A stretch of DNA of 33,966 nucleotides, from positions 1-33,966 of the IMG/VR virus record IMGVR_UViG_3300042544_003954. One strand, 5' to 3'. Below, piece by piece: positions 12,043 through 33,966 of this stretch; position 1 is the first letter of the stretch, and every line of letters begins with the position of its first letter. Under the pieces are notes generated by a model. It saw only the letters and a program-made list of their open reading frames with translations. It was not told the DNA's origin and did not search any database. The translations under genes and the position numbers were made by a program. The DNA is from a virus.

Positions 12043-13443
12043 TTATCTACCTTGGAGAAATAAATCTATGGCTTTATATCTGTATGCTATCTTGTCTTCC
12101 TTGATGCCTGGATTTTTAAGAGGAGCTTTATCCCTATTTATAATCTCCTCTGGGAGAAGTGGAGCAAAAGTATCTTTTAGAATTTTTTTATCCTTTCTCC
12201 ATTCAAGGGGAAGATTTAAAGCAAATCTAACAATCTCTAGATTTAGAAAAGGACTTCTCAATTCTAGAGTATGAGCCATTGACATTTTATCTAATCTTGG
12301 AAGATGGTAATATGTTAGCTCTTCAAAAATATCAGAAGCCTGTGAATCATACTCGTGAATTCTTCTATATCCACCAAATAACTCATCTGCTCCGTCCCCA
12401 CTTATAACAATTCTATGGTCGCTATTATCTTTGATTGCTTTGAAGAGATGATACTGGGGTATAACAGATCCTAAATCAATAGGAGTTTCGTTCCAGTATT
12501 GATAGATTATTTGATTCAAAGAATCATCCATATCATACTTTAGAAAATTTACTTTCTTGTCAAATTTCTCGGATAAGATATTTACAAATTCGGATTCTCC
12601 ATTTTCTATGCTATACCAAGTAACATCAGTGTCTGTTCCTTGAAGAATTGCTGCAATAATAGAAGAATCTAAACCACCTGAAATTAAGAGGGAGATTGGA
12701 TAATTTTTAGAGATCAATCTATTCTGAACTGACTCTATCATTTTTCTCCAAAGCCAATCCATGTGATCTTCGTAGGACTTTTCATAAAGTTCTGGAATAG
12801 GGGAATCCCAAAGTTTATAATAAGCAGGGTAAGTGGTTTTAAAATCTGGAGATTTTATATTGTAGTAGTAAATTGTATTTGGTATAAATCTCTTTACGTC
12901 AGTGTATGGAGTTCTGTTATCAGTATTGTATCCCCATTTTCTAGTTTCGGAAATGAAAACTTGATCTATTGGACTTTGATTGTATGCAAGACCTTTTATC
13001 TCTGAACATATTTCTCCATTCTCGCTATAGTATAAAGGTTTCTTTCCGAGTGGATCTGTGAAAGAAATTATGTCTCCTGTATTCGAATCGTAGATAACGA
13101 TAGCCCAGAATCCATCCCATAATTGAATATGTGGAAGGAACAAAGCAGTAAATAATTCAAAAGATCCACCTTTATACATTCCGAAGAGGGTACAAAGATA
13201 TTCTGTATCTGAAGAATAAACTACCCTATCATAGTTAAAAATCTCTCCGTTGAACATTAGATAAATTCCAGGGGATATTTCTCTTGGTTGGTTCCAAGTA
13301 TCCCCATCTTCTGTCTGTATAGGGAGCCTATGGTGACATAAGAACACGCCATTCTTCTCAACCACTGTTCTTTCTATCCCGCGATGTTTAATTGAGCCTA
13401 GAGAAGATTCGGATCCATCTAGAGTTAATAATATTCCACACAT
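12043..13443 (-). CDS. asnB: Asparagine synthase, glutamine-hydrolysing (AsnB family)
   Basis: A 466-aa two-domain enzyme. The N-terminal class II glutamine amidotransferase has its nucleophile Cys2 directly after the initiator Met (MCGILLTLDG), plus HHRLPIQ (Arg39), MFNGEIFNY (N65-G66-E67) and SSDTEY (Asp79), which correspond to the glutamine-binding residues of E. coli AsnB. The C-terminal synthetase domain has the ATP-pyrophosphatase loop SGGLDSS (from about 255), then VISGDGADELFGGYRRIHEY (SGDGADE motif) and the conserved MSMAHTLELRSPFL. The usual product is asparagine from aspartate, ATP and glutamine; AsnB-family amidation of other carboxylates is possible. It is shorter than E. coli AsnB (554 aa), but all key motifs are present, so it looks active. 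It sits 3 nt after the P-loop kinase gene, between virion genes, as an auxiliary metabolic gene. Confidence 0.93.
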   Translation of the reverse strand: MCGILLTLDGSESSLGSIKHRGIERTVVEKNGVFLCHHRLPIQTEDGDTWNQPREISPGIYLMFNGEIFNYDRVVYSSDTEYLCTLFGMYKGGSFELFTALFLPHIQLWDGFWAIVIYDSNTGDIISFTDPLGKKPLYYSENGEICSEIKGLAYNQSPIDQVFISETRKWGYNTDNRTPYTDVKRFIPNTIYYYNIKSPDFKTTYPAYYKLWDSPIPELYEKSYEDHMDWLWRKMIESVQNRLISKNYPISLLISGGLDSSIIAAILQGTDTDVTWYSIENGESEFVNILSEKFDKKVNFLKYDMDDSLNQIIYQYWNETPIDLGSVIPQYHLFKAIKDNSDHRIVISGDGADELFGGYRRIHEYDSQASDIFEELTYYHLPRLDKMSMAHTLELRSPFLNLEIVRFALNLPLEWRKDKKILKDTFAPLLPEEIINRDKAPLKNPGIKEDKIAYRYKAIDLFLQGR

Positions 13444-21329: not shown

Positions 21330-23387
21330 TTATTTTTTTAGGAATTTACCATTTAAAGATTCTGCAATAAAGTTTAAATATTCGTTAGAATAAGCTTTAG
21401 TTGTTGTTCTCTCTACTGGTGTTTCGATACTTTCGCTTTCAACTAATTTTTGAAGACCAATGTTTCTACCAAGTTGACGTGTTGACCAGAAGTTTTTGAT
21501 CTGATAAGGGGTTTCTAAATTGTAGAAAGACGCTTGAGCAATCAAAGATTGTTTGTGTCCTTCGTTTAGACTTTCCCAAATCTGAGCGTATTCTGCCGGA
21601 GCTTCGTCTACGAATTTGTGTCCTGAACTTGGTTTTTGTTCTGTCTCCTCACTTTCGTTTAGAGCTTGTTCTGCCTTTTGGGTTTGAGCAGCTGGTTGCA
21701 TTCTTTCAGCAACTGTTTTGGTAAGGGTTTCAGTTTTTTGGGTTTGAACTGATTCTATAAGTGAATCTATCTTAGAAGAGATTGTTGTGTAATCTCCTGC
21801 AAATCCAGATTCGAATAGACCTGCGCTTGAAGCAAGGTCTGCCTTTTCTCTTGGGTTTTCACTTTCATTGATGCTACCTGCAAATGTAGTGTTTACATTT
21901 TCTGCGATATACTCAGAGTAAGCGATATTGTTTTTGATCTTCTCAGCTAAATAATCTGAATAAGAAATTCCTTTGTTCAAATTCTCAGCTAGATATTCAG
22001 AATAAGCGATACCTTTGTTAACATTTTCTGCTAGGTATTCAGTGTATCCGATTCCTTGATCTAATTTTTCTGCGATGTATTCACTGTATCCAATTCCTTG
22101 ATCTACTTTTTCAGCTAGATATTCAGAATAAGAAATTCCTCTATCAAGATTTTCAGCTAAGTATTCAGAGTAAGAGATATTAGTATCTACTTTTTCTGCT
22201 ACGTATTCTGAGTATTGGATAGACTCGTCTACTTTTTCTGCTAAATATTTAGAATATTCTACAGATTTGTCTAAGTTCTCAGCTACATATTCAGAGTAAG
22301 AAATAGATTTATCTACATTCTCAGCTAAATATTTAGAATAGGAAATAGTTCTGTCTAAATTTTCAGCTAAATATTTATTATAGCTAATGCTATTATCTAA
22401 ATTTTCAGCTAAATACTCTCCATATTGGATAGAATCATTTAGTGTCTCAGCTAGGTATTCTGAATATTTCTCTAACGTAGAAATTCTGTCTTCCAAAGAA
22501 GGTGAAGTTTCGTTGTTGTAAGTAGGTACCTGTGGGGTGTTGAAGCTTAGTGCTTGTCCTTCTTCTACCTTGTTGTCTTTTAAAGAAGCAATTTCAGCTT
22601 TCATAGCTTCCATTTCTCTTTTCAAAAACACCGTATAGTTGTTTAGATCTTCAGCACTTACAAATTCTCTGTTGCTCTCCATAATAGTGGATTTATTTTT
22701 ATCTTTGTTGATTATTTTTTTAAATTCTTCGTTATCTTTGACATTATATATCATCAAGCCAGAACCTTTTTTTATTCCTAATGCTTCATTTACGCATTCT
22801 AAATTGTTGGTTACGCTTTTATTCTTTCTATATATAAAATCTTCTGACGAAAAACCAGCACTTTCATAAACTCTTTCAAGTTGAGCGTCCTGAAATCCAG
22901 GATCTGCTACTAGATCGTAAGTGAATATTTTCTTGATTTGAACCTTTTTATCAGGACCAACATTACCTGCTGCTCTAGAAGAAATTGAAAGAGGAACACC
23001 TGCATCAACTAATCTTTTTGCGATTTGTCCTGCTGGGGTATCTAGAAGTCTAACTTTGATTTCTAAAATTCTTCCTTCTTTATTGTAGGTCAAATCTTCG
23101 ATAGTGTGTGAAACATTATTCAAAGAAATGTCAAATTTTTCCGGGTGGTCTAATTCTCCTACTAATCTTTTTTGTTTGATTTTATCTTTTAGATAATCAA
23201 GGTGAGGAAGATATTCTCCTTCTTCGTATACACGATTATTATTGTTTTCAACTCCAAATTGAGCTGCAGTTCCTCTAAGAATGTATTCTTTTCCGTCAGC
23301 AGTATTTTCCTGGCGAGCTTCAAGGATCTGATTCTGTTTTTCAAGAATAAAAACCATATTTTCGTTAAGTGATGAAATTTCGGGCAT
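21330..23387 (-). CDS. Prohead protease fused to scaffold (gp21 + gp22-like)
   Basis: A 685-aa protein in two parts. Residues of about 30-180 are a T4 gp21-like serine protease (family S77): GTAAQFGVENNNNRVY, RLVGELDHPEKFDISLNNVS with His81, and VDAGVPLSISSRAAG with the nucleophile probably Ser136, ending with TYDLVADPGFQDAQLERVYE. Residues 181-685 are scaffold-like: charged, low in Cys, helical, with fourteen 14-residue repeats at 308-503 (YSEYLAENLD… type). The C-terminal tail is rich in Glu/Gln/Ser and contains ALNE|S, SLNE|G and FIAE|S sites. In T4 the protease (gp21) and main scaffold (gp22) are separate genes; here one chain would build the core and then degrade it. It lies directly upstream of the capsid gene, as 21-22-23 in T4. 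A TATATA box precedes the ATG. Confidence 0.9.
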   Translation of the reverse strand: MPEISSLNENMVFILEKQNQILEARQENTADGKEYILRGTAAQFGVENNNNRVYEEGEYLPHLDYLKDKIKQKRLVGELDHPEKFDISLNNVSHTIEDLTYNKEGRILEIKVRLLDTPAGQIAKRLVDAGVPLSISSRAAGNVGPDKKVQIKKIFTYDLVADPGFQDAQLERVYESAGFSSEDFIYRKNKSVTNNLECVNEALGIKKGSGLMIYNVKDNEEFKKIINKDKNKSTIMESNREFVSAEDLNNYTVFLKREMEAMKAEIASLKDNKVEEGQALSFNTPQVPTYNNETSPSLEDRISTLEKYSEYLAETLNDSIQYGEYLAENLDNSISYNKYLAENLDRTISYSKYLAENVDKSISYSEYVAENLDKSVEYSKYLAEKVDESIQYSEYVAEKVDTNISYSEYLAENLDRGISYSEYLAEKVDQGIGYSEYIAEKLDQGIGYTEYLAENVNKGIAYSEYLAENLNKGISYSDYLAEKIKNNIAYSEYIAENVNTTFAGSINESENPREKADLASSAGLFESGFAGDYTTISSKIDSLIESVQTQKTETLTKTVAERMQPAAQTQKAEQALNESEETEQKPSSGHKFVDEAPAEYAQIWESLNEGHKQSLIAQASFYNLETPYQIKNFWSTRQLGRNIGLQKLVESESIETPVERTTTKAYSNEYLNFIAESLNGKFLKK
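21879..22466 (-). repeat. Fourteen tandem 42-bp coding repeats (14-aa YSEYLAENLD-type)
   Basis: Residues 308-503 of the protease-scaffold protein consist of fourteen uninterrupted 14-residue units (examples: YSEYLAENLDRGIS, YSEYLAEKVDQGIG, YTEYLAENVNKGIA). Tyr1, Tyr4, Ala6 and Glu7 are kept in every unit, and position 5 is L, I or V. Fourteen residues is exactly two heptads, which suits a long amphipathic helix. DNA identity between units is only moderate, so the repeat is kept by selection on the protein rather than by recent duplication. Confidence 0.95.
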
Positions 23388-27513: not shown

Positions 27514-28329
27514 TTAACTATTCCATTTAGGATCGAACCAAAATCTTCTTCCGATATTGTCCATCATTGATGACATTTCTTTATTTCCGTAGCATTTCAT
27601 CCAGTCAGTCCAAGATCCAAGAGAGGTGTGGATTTCTACTCTTTTAGGGGTTTCCCAAGTGTATAGATTACCTCCCCCTAACAAATATGCTTGCTGTGGT
27701 ATCTCCGAACAGAGATCAAGTAATCTTTCTCCCTTCTCGGACACGATCGCGTCTCTAGCGGGCTGGAAAGGGTTGACGTCGTCAAGTCTATTGATGATCT
27801 CTGCTCTCAGATAATTACCAATTCCATTGAAATATTCTTGATTCATTAAAACCTCCATTAAAGGTTTATCAAATGCTCTCTTGTGTAGGTTATCTTTTAT
27901 TTTCTTCTTGAACGATTCCGGATCTAAAACTGGGTCTGGACCTCTTGAGATGTTCCACCATCCCCAATTCCATTTACCAAATCTTCTAACATCGACGAAA
28001 GCTAACATTCCACCATCAGAAGAATGAAAAAATAAGTGGGAGTTTTTCATGGTTTCTCCTGGCTCTAGCCACTTAAAATACCCTGACATTCCCATTGTCA
28101 TGATTATGTGCTTAACCTGGACTTCTCCTTGGTCTACAAATAAACTGGGAGTGGACAGGGTTAACATAAGTTCCTTTCCTCTTGAATTCGATGATATTTC
28201 AAATGGAAAATCAGCTTCCATTTCTTTTCCCTTGTGACTTGGGTTTTTAGAAATTCCGCTGAAAATCTTGTTCTCAACGACCCTATTGACATAATCTGAT
28301 GTCAATCTTACTTCTGCTAGTTCTGGCAT
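27514..28329 (-). CDS. Fpg/Nei-family DNA glycosylase
   Basis: A 271-aa base-excision-repair enzyme. The start MPELAEV fixes the reading: Pro2 (Schiff-base nucleophile) and Glu3 follow the initiator Met. The N-terminal beta-sandwich contains SNSRGKELMLTL (Lys52, the usual DNA-contact Lys) and MGMSGYFKW, then DVRRFGKWNWG. The helix-two-turn-helix is NQEYFNGIGNYLRAEIINRL. The normal zinc finger with four Cys is absent: the last 28 residues hold a single Cys, but keep NIGRRFWFDPKW, which parallels the zincless finger of NEIL1-type enzymes, including the lesion-reading Arg. It would remove oxidised bases and nick at the abasic site. An AATATACGGT-type box lies 9 nt before the ATG. It is followed by the exonuclease gene. 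Confidence 0.93.
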   Translation of the reverse strand: MPELAEVRLTSDYVNRVVENKIFSGISKNPSHKGKEMEADFPFEISSNSRGKELMLTLSTPSLFVDQGEVQVKHIIMTMGMSGYFKWLEPGETMKNSHLFFHSSDGGMLAFVDVRRFGKWNWGWWNISRGPDPVLDPESFKKKIKDNLHKRAFDKPLMEVLMNQEYFNGIGNYLRAEIINRLDDVNPFQPARDAIVSEKGERLLDLCSEIPQQAYLLGGGNLYTWETPKRVEIHTSLGSWTDWMKCYGNKEMSSMMDNIGRRFWFDPKWNS

Positions 28330-28338
28330 ATTTGAGTA

Positions 28339-28349
28339 AATATACGGTC
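28339..28349 (-). promoter_or_regulatory. ACCGTATATT box upstream of the glycosylase gene
   Basis: Minus-strand GACCGTATATTTACTC contains ACCGTATATT (plus-strand AATATACGGT), shared with 32336-32345 and 33564-33573. It also resembles the Bacteroidota -7 consensus TAnnTTTG (here TATATTTA). Only 9 nt separate it from the ATG at 28329, so a transcript from it would have almost no leader. Confidence 0.45.
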
Positions 28350-29243
28350 CTAGTCTGGAATTTTATTAATTACTATTGGTTTTAATGATTTACTTTCCTT
28401 CATGTATTTTATGCAGGAAAGATCTTTGTCTAGAGAATCCACTATAATATCAATCTCTAAATTGAAAGTTGGGATTCGATTAGAAAGGAATGAAGAAGGA
28501 GATGGGCTGGAAGGAACTCCAAACTCGTCCACCGCTTCTGGCTCAGAATGAATAAAAACTGGTTTTATATCATTTGACCAGGTGGAAGCACTCAAGAATA
28601 AGGCTTCTCTTGAACTCAATCCGCCGTTATTAAATTGATGAGGAAGGAATCTAAAACAGATGGGGATTTTAGTGGAGTAATAAACTCCAGAAAGCAAATC
28701 TGTTACAGAAAATAAACTAGGTTTTTCGTCGTTCATTACTGCTAATTTTCTAACCACATAATTTGGAAGAGACTTTACCTCTTCACTAAATCTAACAAGT
28801 GTTTCTTTTCTGTTTCCATAAGCACTTCCTACTCGGATTAGAATAGATGGTTCTTGAACACCTATGCAATCTAGAAAGTCTGAAACTTTCAAAATAATTT
28901 TTTTTGTGTCCTGGACAATTTCAGGTAGCTGAGAACCTAAGAAATATCCTTTTCCCAAGAAGAAAAAAATTCTAATCTTTTTAGCAGAGACAAGATTAGA
29001 AATAAGATCTATTTTATTTTGTTCTTCTGAATCCTCCTCAATGGAAGAAAAATCAAATTCTTGTAAATTTGTTTCTAGTAGGTCGAAGCAAAGCATCTGA
29101 ATACCATTTTCGGAATTATATTTTAAATGGTCGATTACAAAATCTAAGAATGAGTGTAAAGTCCAGATCTCTTTTTTAGAGACATCCCAGGACTTCATAG
29201 ATCCTAGATAACCTATTCTGTGAGCTGTTCTATTTAAAATCAT
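28350..29243 (-). CDS. UV damage endonuclease (UvdE)-like TIM-barrel protein, divergent
   Basis: A 297-aa protein with the UvdE segment order: HRIGYLGSMK near the N-terminus, a long helical part ending LKYNSENGIQMLCFDLL (like 'l..N…gI..fR.SS'), then SILIRVGSAYGNRKETLVRF (like 'iHvGg.yGdKe.al.RF'), VRKLAVMNDEKPSLFSVTDL (like 'l.lENDd…fs..dl'), IPICFRFLPHQFNNGGLSSR (like 'iP.vfD.hHh…n') and STWSNDIKPVFIHSEPE (like 'tW…..kpviH.S'). UvdE nicks DNA 5' to UV lesions using a three-metal site. Here several usual ligands are changed: R for H in IRVGS, M for E in VMNDE, and F-R for the D region. Catalytic competence is therefore doubtful. It lies in a row with the glycosylase and exonuclease genes. Confidence 0.6.
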   Translation of the reverse strand: MILNRTAHRIGYLGSMKSWDVSKKEIWTLHSFLDFVIDHLKYNSENGIQMLCFDLLETNLQEFDFSSIEEDSEEQNKIDLISNLVSAKKIRIFFFLGKGYFLGSQLPEIVQDTKKIILKVSDFLDCIGVQEPSILIRVGSAYGNRKETLVRFSEEVKSLPNYVVRKLAVMNDEKPSLFSVTDLLSGVYYSTKIPICFRFLPHQFNNGGLSSREALFLSASTWSNDIKPVFIHSEPEAVDEFGVPSSPSPSSFLSNRIPTFNLEIDIIVDSLDKDLSCIKYMKESKSLKPIVINKIPD

Positions 29244-31144: not shown

Positions 31145-32281
31145 TTAGAAATTAGCGAAAGGATCAAAAGCTTTAGGAACACTTACTTCGGTTGTCCAAA
31201 CTGTTCCGTCTAAGATCTTTATTCTGTCTATAGTTATGTTCTTCTTAGGAAGTTCCATTCCTCTGGTTAGTTCTTCGTTACAAGATTCAGTAACAAATCC
31301 TGGCATTACCTCGGAGTCTAACCACATTAAAGTGTAGTTTCTTAGAATGTTTTTTGTTACCTTTTCTCTGTTTTCTGTGTTATCTACGTCTTTTAGAATT
31401 CGGAGTACAAATCCAGATATCCAGGATAGAAATTCCGAGTCTGCTAGCATTTCTTTGAAGGTAGAGTCTTTCCACTTAGATTGACTTAAAGATTCTAGGA
31501 TTTGCTCAGCTTTCTTAGGGGAAATACCATTGTTCTTTCCGCTTGCAGTTGGAACATACCATACTCCAGGAACTGCATCACCTTTATCTCCAGTTAGCAT
31601 TTTCATGAAGACAAAGTTTCTTCTGTTGACTTCTTCAACAGTAACTTTCTTTAGAAATTCTTTTACTTTATCTTTATCTGGTGAAATTGCAGCTGTCATA
31701 TCAAAGATAGAAACAGATTCGGTTTTATTTACCCAGTTGTCTTCCCAACCTGGAGGAACTGCTAAGATGTTATTCTTAGAATTGTTGTTCCAGATAACAG
31801 TCCAACCTTTCTCGTTGTGACGAGCCAGCTGGTGCATATCTTTATCCCCACTGATGATAATACAATTCTCACCGATAGAATTGAAATGTTCAGACCAGAA
31901 GTAAAGAAGATCATCACCTTCTGCACCTTTGACCTTAGAATAGATGAATCCCTGCTTCTCCATTTGCTGACCAAATTCTGCCATGAGATCAAAGAAGATT
32001 GTCCAGTCCACAGTTTCGTCTTTTACCCTGGTGGATTTATATCCTCCGTCTTCTATCTCAACATCCTTTCTCCAGGATCTACTATCGCAAGTAAATATTA
32101 ATCTACCACCTTGAGGAAGTAATTTTAGACCTGCACAGAGATCTGTAGCTATTTTTCTGATAAACATAGATTGTTCCCCTTTAGTTCCAAGAACCTCTGC
32201 AGGATCTTTTATTCCAAATCCACCAAAGACACCAAAGGTCTTGTGGAAAATATAGTTTCCGTCGCAAAGTATATTAATCAT
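31145..32281 (-). CDS. FEN-family 5'-3' exonuclease / RNase H (T4 Rnh-like)
   Basis: A 378-aa nuclease that removes RNA primers and 5' flaps. The acidic metal-binding positions of the FEN family are all visible: MINILCDGNYIF (Asp7), RLIFTCDSRSWRKD (Asp66), VKGAEGDDLLYF (Glu121, Asp123, Asp124), IISGDKDMHQL (Asp146, Asp148) and MLTGDKGDAVPGV (Asp232, Asp235; start of the helix-hairpin-helix). Basic residues SWRKD and YKSTRVKD after motif II suit 5'-end DNA binding. It is longer than T4 RNase H (305 aa). The C-terminus ends in AFDPFANF, an aromatic tail that could bind a clamp or SSB, but this is only a guess. It starts a minus-strand unit leading into the basic protein and methylglyoxal synthase genes. 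The conserved promoter block 32301-32345 lies upstream. Confidence 0.92.
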   Translation of the reverse strand: MINILCDGNYIFHKTFGVFGGFGIKDPAEVLGTKGEQSMFIRKIATDLCAGLKLLPQGGRLIFTCDSRSWRKDVEIEDGGYKSTRVKDETVDWTIFFDLMAEFGQQMEKQGFIYSKVKGAEGDDLLYFWSEHFNSIGENCIIISGDKDMHQLARHNEKGWTVIWNNNSKNNILAVPPGWEDNWVNKTESVSIFDMTAAISPDKDKVKEFLKKVTVEEVNRRNFVFMKMLTGDKGDAVPGVWYVPTASGKNNGISPKKAEQILESLSQSKWKDSTFKEMLADSEFLSWISGFVLRILKDVDNTENREKVTKNILRNYTLMWLDSEVMPGFVTESCNEELTRGMELPKKNITIDRIKILDGTVWTTEVSVPKAFDPFANF

Positions 32282-32300
32282 TTGTAATTTTATTTTTCAT

Positions 32301-32345
32301 TATAGATATATAGGGTTAGTTAATTTCATTTATAGAATATACGGT
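32301..32345 (-). promoter_or_regulatory. Conserved promoter block (TATAGATATATA … AATATACGGT), copy 1
   Basis: This 45-bp block lies between the RNase H start (32281) and the divergent homing endonuclease start (32347). Plus strand reads TATAGATATATAG, then TTAATTTCA, then AATATACGGT (32336-32345). The same three words in the same order occur at 33532-33573 upstream of the next minus-strand gene. ACCGTATATT on the minus strand is the likely promoter core for RNase H, 54 nt before its ATG. Confidence 0.55.
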
Positions 32346-32346
32346 C

Positions 32347-33189
32347 ATGGAAAATTATTATGTTTATATTTATTTAGATCCAAGAAAACCTGGGGTTTTT
32401 AATTACGAGGATCTCAGATTTGAATTTGAGCCCTTCTATGTTGGGAAGGGAACTAAAGGTAGATGCTTCAGTGGTATTAGAGATAAAAAATCCTGCAGGA
32501 AAGTTTCTAAGATAAATTCCATAATTAAAGATGGGAAATTCCCAATCATAATTAAGATTATAGAAGGAATAACAAATAAGGAATCTCAAATTATAGAAAG
32601 AACAACTATTTCTAAAATAGGTAGGGCAGACAGTAGTGAAGGTCCATTAACAAATATGACCTCCGGAGGAGAAGGTGGTTTGGGTCTAAAACATTCGGAC
32701 GTATGGAAAAAAACCTTATCAAAACCAATCCTTCAGTTCGATTTAGAAGGAAATGTTCTAAGTGAATATAATTCGGTTAAAGAAGCATCGGAAATTACCG
32801 GAACAATCAAACAAAATATATCAGCTAATCTTACCGGTAAATATAAATCGGCCGGAGGATTTATTTGGAAATATAAAGATCCTTCTCTCTCACTTCAAGG
32901 GCACTTGAAAAAATCCTTTGAAATGCCTAAACATTCGGAAGAGACTAAAAAGAAAATGTCATTCTCTGCAAAAAAAGGAGGGGATCATCACATGAGTAAA
33001 AAAATGGGGGATTTGCATCCTAGATCAAGAAAAATAATTCAAAAGAGCATGGAAGGAGAGACCGTTAGAATCTGGAATTCGATGTCGGATATTAAAAAAG
33101 AACTAGGGTTTAGCCCATCTAATATCTGTAGGTGCTGTAAGGGATCAGTTAAGAGAATTGGAGGATTTAAGTGGGAATATTTCCTTTAA
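32347..33189 (+). CDS. GIY-YIG homing endonuclease with NUMOD domains
   Basis: A 280-aa free-standing mobile endonuclease. The N-terminal GIY-YIG domain has YYVYIYLD (4-11) and FYVGKGTKGR (30-39) as the two signature strands, the latter with the conserved Arg. Glu in SQIIERTTISKIGR (about residue 85) is the metal ligand. NUMOD1-type DNA-binding repeats follow: PILQFDLEGNVLSEYNSVKE … GGFIWKY, and a second near the C-terminus ending GGFKWEYFL. A NUMOD3-like HSEETKKKMSFSAKKG lies between them. It cuts an intronless target to spread its own gene. It is on the plus strand against its neighbours and its ATG lies 1 nt from the AATATACGGT box. The last 23 nt overlap the 3' end of the convergent gene. 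The reading frame is intact. Confidence 0.92.
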   Translation: MENYYVYIYLDPRKPGVFNYEDLRFEFEPFYVGKGTKGRCFSGIRDKKSCRKVSKINSIIKDGKFPIIIKIIEGITNKESQIIERTTISKIGRADSSEGPLTNMTSGGEGGLGLKHSDVWKKTLSKPILQFDLEGNVLSEYNSVKEASEITGTIKQNISANLTGKYKSAGGFIWKYKDPSLSLQGHLKKSFEMPKHSEETKKKMSFSAKKGGDHHMSKKMGDLHPRSRKIIQKSMEGETVRIWNSMSDIKKELGFSPSNICRCCKGSVKRIGGFKWEYFL

Positions 33190-33496: not shown

Positions 33497-33531
33497 ATAT
33501 TTTTATTCTTATTGGTAATCTTATATTCCAT

Positions 33532-33573
33532 CATAGATATATAATGAGAATTAATTTCACACAAATATACGGT
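33532..33573 (-). promoter_or_regulatory. Conserved promoter block (ATAGATATATA … AATATACGGT), copy 2
   Basis: Plus strand reads CATAGATATATAA, TTAATTTCA, then AATATACGGT (33564-33573), matching 32301-32345 in word order. On the minus strand TATATTTG fits the Bacteroidota -7 consensus TAnnTTTG exactly. It lies 67 nt before the ATG of the minus-strand gene at 33496. Confidence 0.55.
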
Positions 33574-33617
33574 AAGAAAGATTGTTGAACTAAATTATAT
33601 TAACTAAATGAAGTTTT

Positions 33618-33966
33618 ATGAACAAAAAATTTTACAAATATTGGACGTTTCTGTGTCTTTATTATTTTACTAGCTTTACCCAACTTTTATTTTCTCAGGT
33701 TGGTTTTATGGGTTCGGGAACTATTACAGGCAATAATATTGACGTAAATACCCGCACACATCTTACCTCTAATGTCTCAGCAGGGAGTACTTCTATTTCG
33801 GTCAGCAACAGCAACTTATCTGGTTCTGTTTTTAGTGGCAATTTGTCATCTGGCGATTTAATCCTCATTATTCAAATGCAGGGTGCCACTATAAACATTG
33901 TAAATAATGCAACTTATGGTGCTATTACCAATTACAACAGTGCGGGACTGTATGAATTCAGGTGTG
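33618..33966 (+). CDS. Secreted Bacteroidota-type surface protein, N-terminal part (partial)
   Basis: A plus-strand frame from the ATG at 33618 is open to the window edge (116 codons). It starts MNKKFYKYWTFLCLYYFTSF, then TQLLFSQ|V: a basic N-terminus, a hydrophobic core and a Q|V-type cleavage region, a clear Sec signal peptide. The mature part has SNVSAGSTSISVSNSN and SSGDLILIIQMQGATIN, the 'aGs.s.tv……GDlIliiQMqGa' motif at the start of many large Bacteroidota surface proteins (gliding-motility-associated C-terminal domain type). Codon choice differs from the rest of the window (more C- and G-ending codons such as ACC, CGC, GGC, GTC, CAG). It could be host DNA, an assembly chimera or a cargo gene. 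No other protein in the window has a signal peptide. Confidence 0.75.
   Translation, partial: MNKKFYKYWTFLCLYYFTSFTQLLFSQVGFMGSGTITGNNIDVNTRTHLTSNVSAGSTSISVSNSNLSGSVFSGNLSSGDLILIIQMQGATINIVNNATYGAITNYNSAGLYEFRC

Follow-up and report, generated by a model that had tools for sequence, protein, structure and literature searches.

The window analysed here is the whole of a virus record, 33966 bases long, and the gene at its edge, which we call the cargo gene, is therefore cut by the record end. The DNA up to 33573 is that of a T4-like phage: its marker products are a Gp23-type capsid protein (PF07068 at 133.2 bits) and a prohead protease (a phrog_207 match, and PF03420 at 31.1 bits), both T4-like, together with a 5'-3' exonuclease and a GIY-YIG homing endonuclease. 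In a collection of 50,697 records, no phage exceeds 44% identity to the capsid protein, and 23 of the 33 records that it matches name Prevotella, Tenacibaculum, Chryseobacterium or Flavobacterium phages. The features toward the edge of the window are as follows.

31145..32281, minus strand: 5'-3' exonuclease of the phage, the locus marker used as query for finding relatives
32347..33189, plus strand: GIY-YIG homing endonuclease with NUMOD domains, 90% amino-acid identity to L016
33167..33496, minus strand: gene for a YunG-like protein (PF24591, 62.9 bits against a cut-off of 27), phage, codon score -0.144
33511..33573, no strand: divergent phage intergenic element with GATATATA and ACCGTATAT motifs, a copy of 32280-32345
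33574..33580, no strand: interval containing the phage/bacterial joint; the phage repeat stops at 33573 and bacterial homology begins at 33581
33581..33617, plus strand: bacterial 5' leader accompanying the cargo gene, aligning to L017 upstream of its start codon
33618..33965, plus strand: N-terminal 116 codons of the cargo gene (T9SS-type surface protein), cut by the record end, bacterium-like codons; residues 1-116 are 78% identical to L017:8001-8348

An earlier note on this DNA had described an abrupt change past 33573, from minus-strand phage genes to a plus-strand gene with different codon choice. The boundary was borne out: the phage-type intergenic element stops at 33573, and by BLAST the homology to a bacterial MAG (locus L017; 81% over 386 bp) starts at 33581, 37 nt upstream of the cargo start codon. 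The plus-strand ORF is present at the edge (116 aa, open at the record end), and the phage genes before it lie mostly on the minus strand, a run that is broken earlier by the plus-strand homing endonuclease. Since one of 497 background windows also got 28/43 identities in the leader comparison, we retested the leader match with shuffles; the 5' leader alone scored 34 against L017, a value equalled by 1 of 1000 shuffles. The difference in codon choice was confirmed as well, with the edge ORF scoring +0.076 per codon toward MAG genes and none of 319 phage stretches of 116 codons attaining this score (mean -0.10, maximum -0.019). Meanwhile, the homing endonuclease and the YunG-like gene have phage-like codons. 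Bacterial codon use in the cargo implies either recent residence in the phage or an artificial joint.

Across its first 49 nt, the element at 33511-33573 is an 80% copy of 32280-32328, a stretch that separates the exonuclease from the homing endonuclease. Within the element there is a GATATATA motif at 33536 (plus strand), pointing toward the cargo, and a ACCGTATAT motif at 33565-33573 (minus strand). Of the ten GATATATA sites in the window, nine fall in the 100 nt upstream of a gene start, zones that make up 9.7% of the window, and the only two plus-strand copies, at 32305 and 33536, each stand ahead of a plus-strand gene; the MAG stretches L017 and L018 contain none. Both motifs were defined in this analysis, and we regard them as putative promoters.

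The cargo protein and its relatives

The cargo ORF contains the stretch GDLILIIQMQGA, the surface-protein motif claimed for the edge, in a region conserved across 12 aligned sequences. As to the claimed Sec signal, the N-terminus (residues 1-27) is hydrophobic and, by eye, has a Sec-signal-like look. We considered the cargo as an AgmC adventurous gliding protein (NF047640, curated cut-off 275 bits) and rejected this assignment, because the AgmC_N-type match of the window ORF (24.1 bits, E 1.6e-5) lies far under the cut-off and L017 reaches 139.3 bits; the protein is related to that family and not a member of it. A literature search on AgmC with gliding motility returned no paper, nor did our searches of a paper library list one describing the cargo protein family in a phage.

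A search of 84,980 species genomes located 45 loci that encode a relative, most of them in Bacteroidota MAGs. The full-length relatives combine an AgmC_N-like part that is below the cut-off with T9SS type A or type B sorting tails; those from bacteria measure 777, 782 and 779 aa, and the bacterial relative L018 carries a C-terminal T9SS type A sorting domain. The predicted structure of L018 (7-sequence alignment) had a mean pLDDT of 40.2, too low for use. Among other viral contigs and phage records, no relative was found of the N-terminal part or of the junction-spanning pattern, in a searched set that may omit near copies of the record itself.

The same locus in related contigs

To place the cargo among related phages, contigs were collected by three markers, namely the exonuclease (14 loci), the homing endonuclease (18 loci, of which, beyond L062, the contig of L016, only the 3 also holding exonuclease and guanylate kinase were counted) and the guanylate kinase (15 loci, 8 being contigs already counted). 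Together these give 20 different contigs that hold guanylate kinase as well as exonuclease, L099 being excluded as it ends inside the kinase; as several of them plainly represent one phage seen in more than one sample, the count is one of contigs and not of independent phages. Neither the cargo nor the YunG-like gene occurs in any of the 20, and for the YunG-like protein no viral relative was found, 17 related records being empty too. In 9 contigs the homing endonuclease separates guanylate kinase from exonuclease, and the other 11 lack it; we compared this presence/absence site in the window (32347-33189), L003-L016, L063-L065 and L086-L088.

The other end of a cargo-type gene is found in L092, L093 and L094, IMG/VR contigs of a related phage from three metagenomes, where it adjoins the guanylate kinase tail-to-tail, in the orientation that the window predicts. 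Over 4879 bp that include the kinase/cargo junction, L092 is 99.98% identical to L093 and 100% identical to L094. Phage genes on the far side of the cargo, one of the tests proposed in the earlier note, are thus present in these related contigs and not in this record. The contigs hold 93 (L092), 93 (L093) and 413 (L094) cargo codons at the 3' end, and the L094 part ends in a C-terminal T9SS type A sorting domain (PF18962 at 42.2 bits, cut-off 27; TIGR04183 at 34.8 bits, cut-off 23), an end before which the window gene is cut. PF18962 exceeded its cut-off in 3 of 21 phage records, which are L092-L094 themselves, with weak matches in two further ones (LR756500.1, 19.6 bits; the record of L063, 14 bits).

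Taken in combined order, the locus reads exonuclease, homing endonuclease, YunG-like gene and cargo 5' end in the window, and cargo 3' end and kinase in L092-L094. The window piece represents residues 1-116, and the L094 piece begins near residue 368, as judged from a 47-residue overlap with L017; the reading frame is open over the 116 + 413 codons seen. No single contig covers the whole insert, whose 5' side is in the window and whose 3' side is in L092-L094; the two do not overlap and possibly come from different phages whose cargo is alike. L092 and L093 derive from separate metagenomes and break off at the identical base inside the cargo gene, which hints at a branch in both assemblies. 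That all four contigs end inside the cargo gene would be expected if a bacterial or variant copy were present in the same samples.

The probable bacterial source

L017 belongs to genome G018, a 2.5 Mb freshwater-type MAG with the submitter's label Chitinophaga pinensis, in whose family 4 of 70 genomes have a cargo-type gene. The 3' half of the MAG gene is on a separate contig (L118), where it encodes a protein part 88% identical to L094 and is followed by uvrA; in genome L104 the gene adjoins another gene whose start, by eye, matches the MAG uvrA. At the 3' end, homology between phage and MAG DNA runs over 1187 bp at 84.4%, extends beyond the stop codon through intergenic DNA and stops at the uvrA start in the MAG, which corresponds to the kinase stop codon in the phage. 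This 3' flank scores 87 against the MAG intergenic DNA between gene and uvrA, the best of 1000 shuffles reaching 33, and there is no uvrA DNA in the window or in L094. Because the gene is accompanied by bacterial DNA on both sides, as 5' leader and 3' flank, we read the direction of transfer as from bacterium to phage. Judged from sequence, the cargo source is a Bacteroidota lineage; together with a capsid nearest to phages of mostly Bacteroidota hosts, this upholds the proposal that the edge gene points to Bacteroidota as the host group.

Divergence from the MAG gene is similar in both pieces (dS 0.64 in the window, 0.77 in L094). The dN/dS ratios, 0.18 for the window part and 0.08 for the L094 part, are not assignable to the phage branch, and with three outgroups the amino-acid changes fall about equally on the phage and MAG branches. 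If the donor was a sister species of G018, as may be the case, some of the divergence could be older than the capture.

Interpretation and known phage-borne T9SS cargo

A whole bacterial surface-protein gene with flanking DNA appears to be carried by a large Bacteroidota phage, the donor resembling the likely host. We consider it very probable that this T4-like phage holds a complete bacterial gene of ~780 codons between the YunG-like gene and the guanylate kinase; the two joints, the bacterial flanks and the T9SS type A sorting tail are seen in the sequences, and the capture, transcription and export of the gene product are inferred. The gene would have originated in a relative of G018, with the neighbouring homing endonuclease possibly assisting its copying, and in infected cells the element at 33511-33573 would drive its transcription. 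Given its sorting tail and hydrophobic N-terminus, the protein is predicted to pass through Sec and then the host T9SS and so to reach the infected cell's surface; there it would most likely block further phage adsorption or alter adhesion. A more far-reaching version holds that the kinase-exonuclease interval is a landing site kept open by the homing endonuclease, in which host surface-protein genes are taken up and swapped between variants, re-coating infected cells via the host T9SS and barring rival phages; we regard it as rather improbable.

The earlier note had left three readings side by side, cargo, phage-host junction and chimera, and of these cargo is favoured, chiefly by the 3' end joined to the expected kinase in L092-L094. 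If the last 393 bases came from a co-occurring bacterium and were misjoined to the phage during assembly or library preparation, the abrupt switch to bacterial DNA and codons in the final 393 nt of the contig would follow, and the N-terminal part without a viral relative and the lack of cargo in all 20 related contigs that hold the two neighbouring genes are in keeping with this. However, an independent junction lies at the gene's other end, at the complementary place, in the right orientation and in three assemblies, and a chimera would require two unrelated misjoins, one at each outer edge of the gene. To find the two ends of a single bacterial gene at complementary phage places fits real cargo and not random chimerism, and we consider an artificial joint very unlikely; an abrupt host-like end does not alone prove a viral contig chimeric. 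An integrated phage, with the joint as a prophage end in a bacterial chromosome, is hardly credible. The MAG does hold the same gene chromosomally, beside uvrA, but an insertion between the two would place uvrA, and not the 5' leader, beside the YunG-like gene, and we rejected this reading because of the gene order and the lack of uvrA DNA in the window and L094. The T4-like character of the phage also speaks against it, as does the count of 0 of 70 genomes of the MAG's family with the phage capsid gene, a count made with no positive control.

If the cargo reading is right, the gene might still be an inert passenger, recently caught and neither expressed nor useful, as bacterial codon use and the absence of the gene from most relatives would suggest. 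We find this unlikely, though worth considering: the frame is open throughout the codons seen, a phage-type motif points at the cargo, and the changes relative to the MAG gene are mainly synonymous, possibly from before capture.

Phage-encoded T9SS cargo is already published, and what is new here is a member with a traceable source. According to the account of Cryophage (Bellas et al. 2020, PMC7468147), this Bacteroidetes phage, 76 kb in size, has flexible islands in which three variable genes encode T9SS type A sorting domains, and its authors suggested a hijack of the host T9SS, perhaps for superinfection exclusion. The likeness lies in such sorting-domain genes in a Bacteroidetes phage; the Cryophage cargo described there is an endoglucanase, a GH39 and a PA14 protein, whereas we see an AgmC_N-like surface protein in a T4-like phage with recognisable bacterial flanks. 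CrAss-like phages, as reported in PMC6949934, likewise encode T9SS sorting-domain proteins, near BACON ORFs; by that report they share with our case sorting tails encoded by Bacteroidetes phages and differ in having BACON repeats near head/tail genes, another protein and another phage type. The huge phage LR756500.1 resembles ours in its capsid (44% identity) and exonuclease (33%), and has an ORF (L106:3881-4990) with a T9SS-tail look and a signal-like start, but that product is 369 aa long, 24.5% identical over part and under the cut-off for PF18962. The chromosomal gene next to uvrA (L118, L104) has the same family, flanks and sorting tail, and differs in being bacterium-borne. If real, the window gene is a phage-borne surface protein traceable to its bacterial source down to the 5' leader and 3' intergenic DNA, it names a likely host lineage, and it could allow the phage to modify the surface of infected cells, offering a direct test of whether phages use T9SS to that end.

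Elsewhere in the phage record, 69 bp tandem units (7.8 copies, 703-1240) lie inside the ORF at 358-2733, whose 791-aa product has no Pfam match, and a 42 bp repeat array (21895-22415) encoding YSEYLAEN-type repeats follows the protease part of the prohead protease ORF (21330-23387). The record also has an asparagine synthase gene with a glutamine amidotransferase domain (12043-13443), and adjoining DNA repair genes for a Fapy-type glycosylase and a UvdE-type UV endonuclease (27514-29243).
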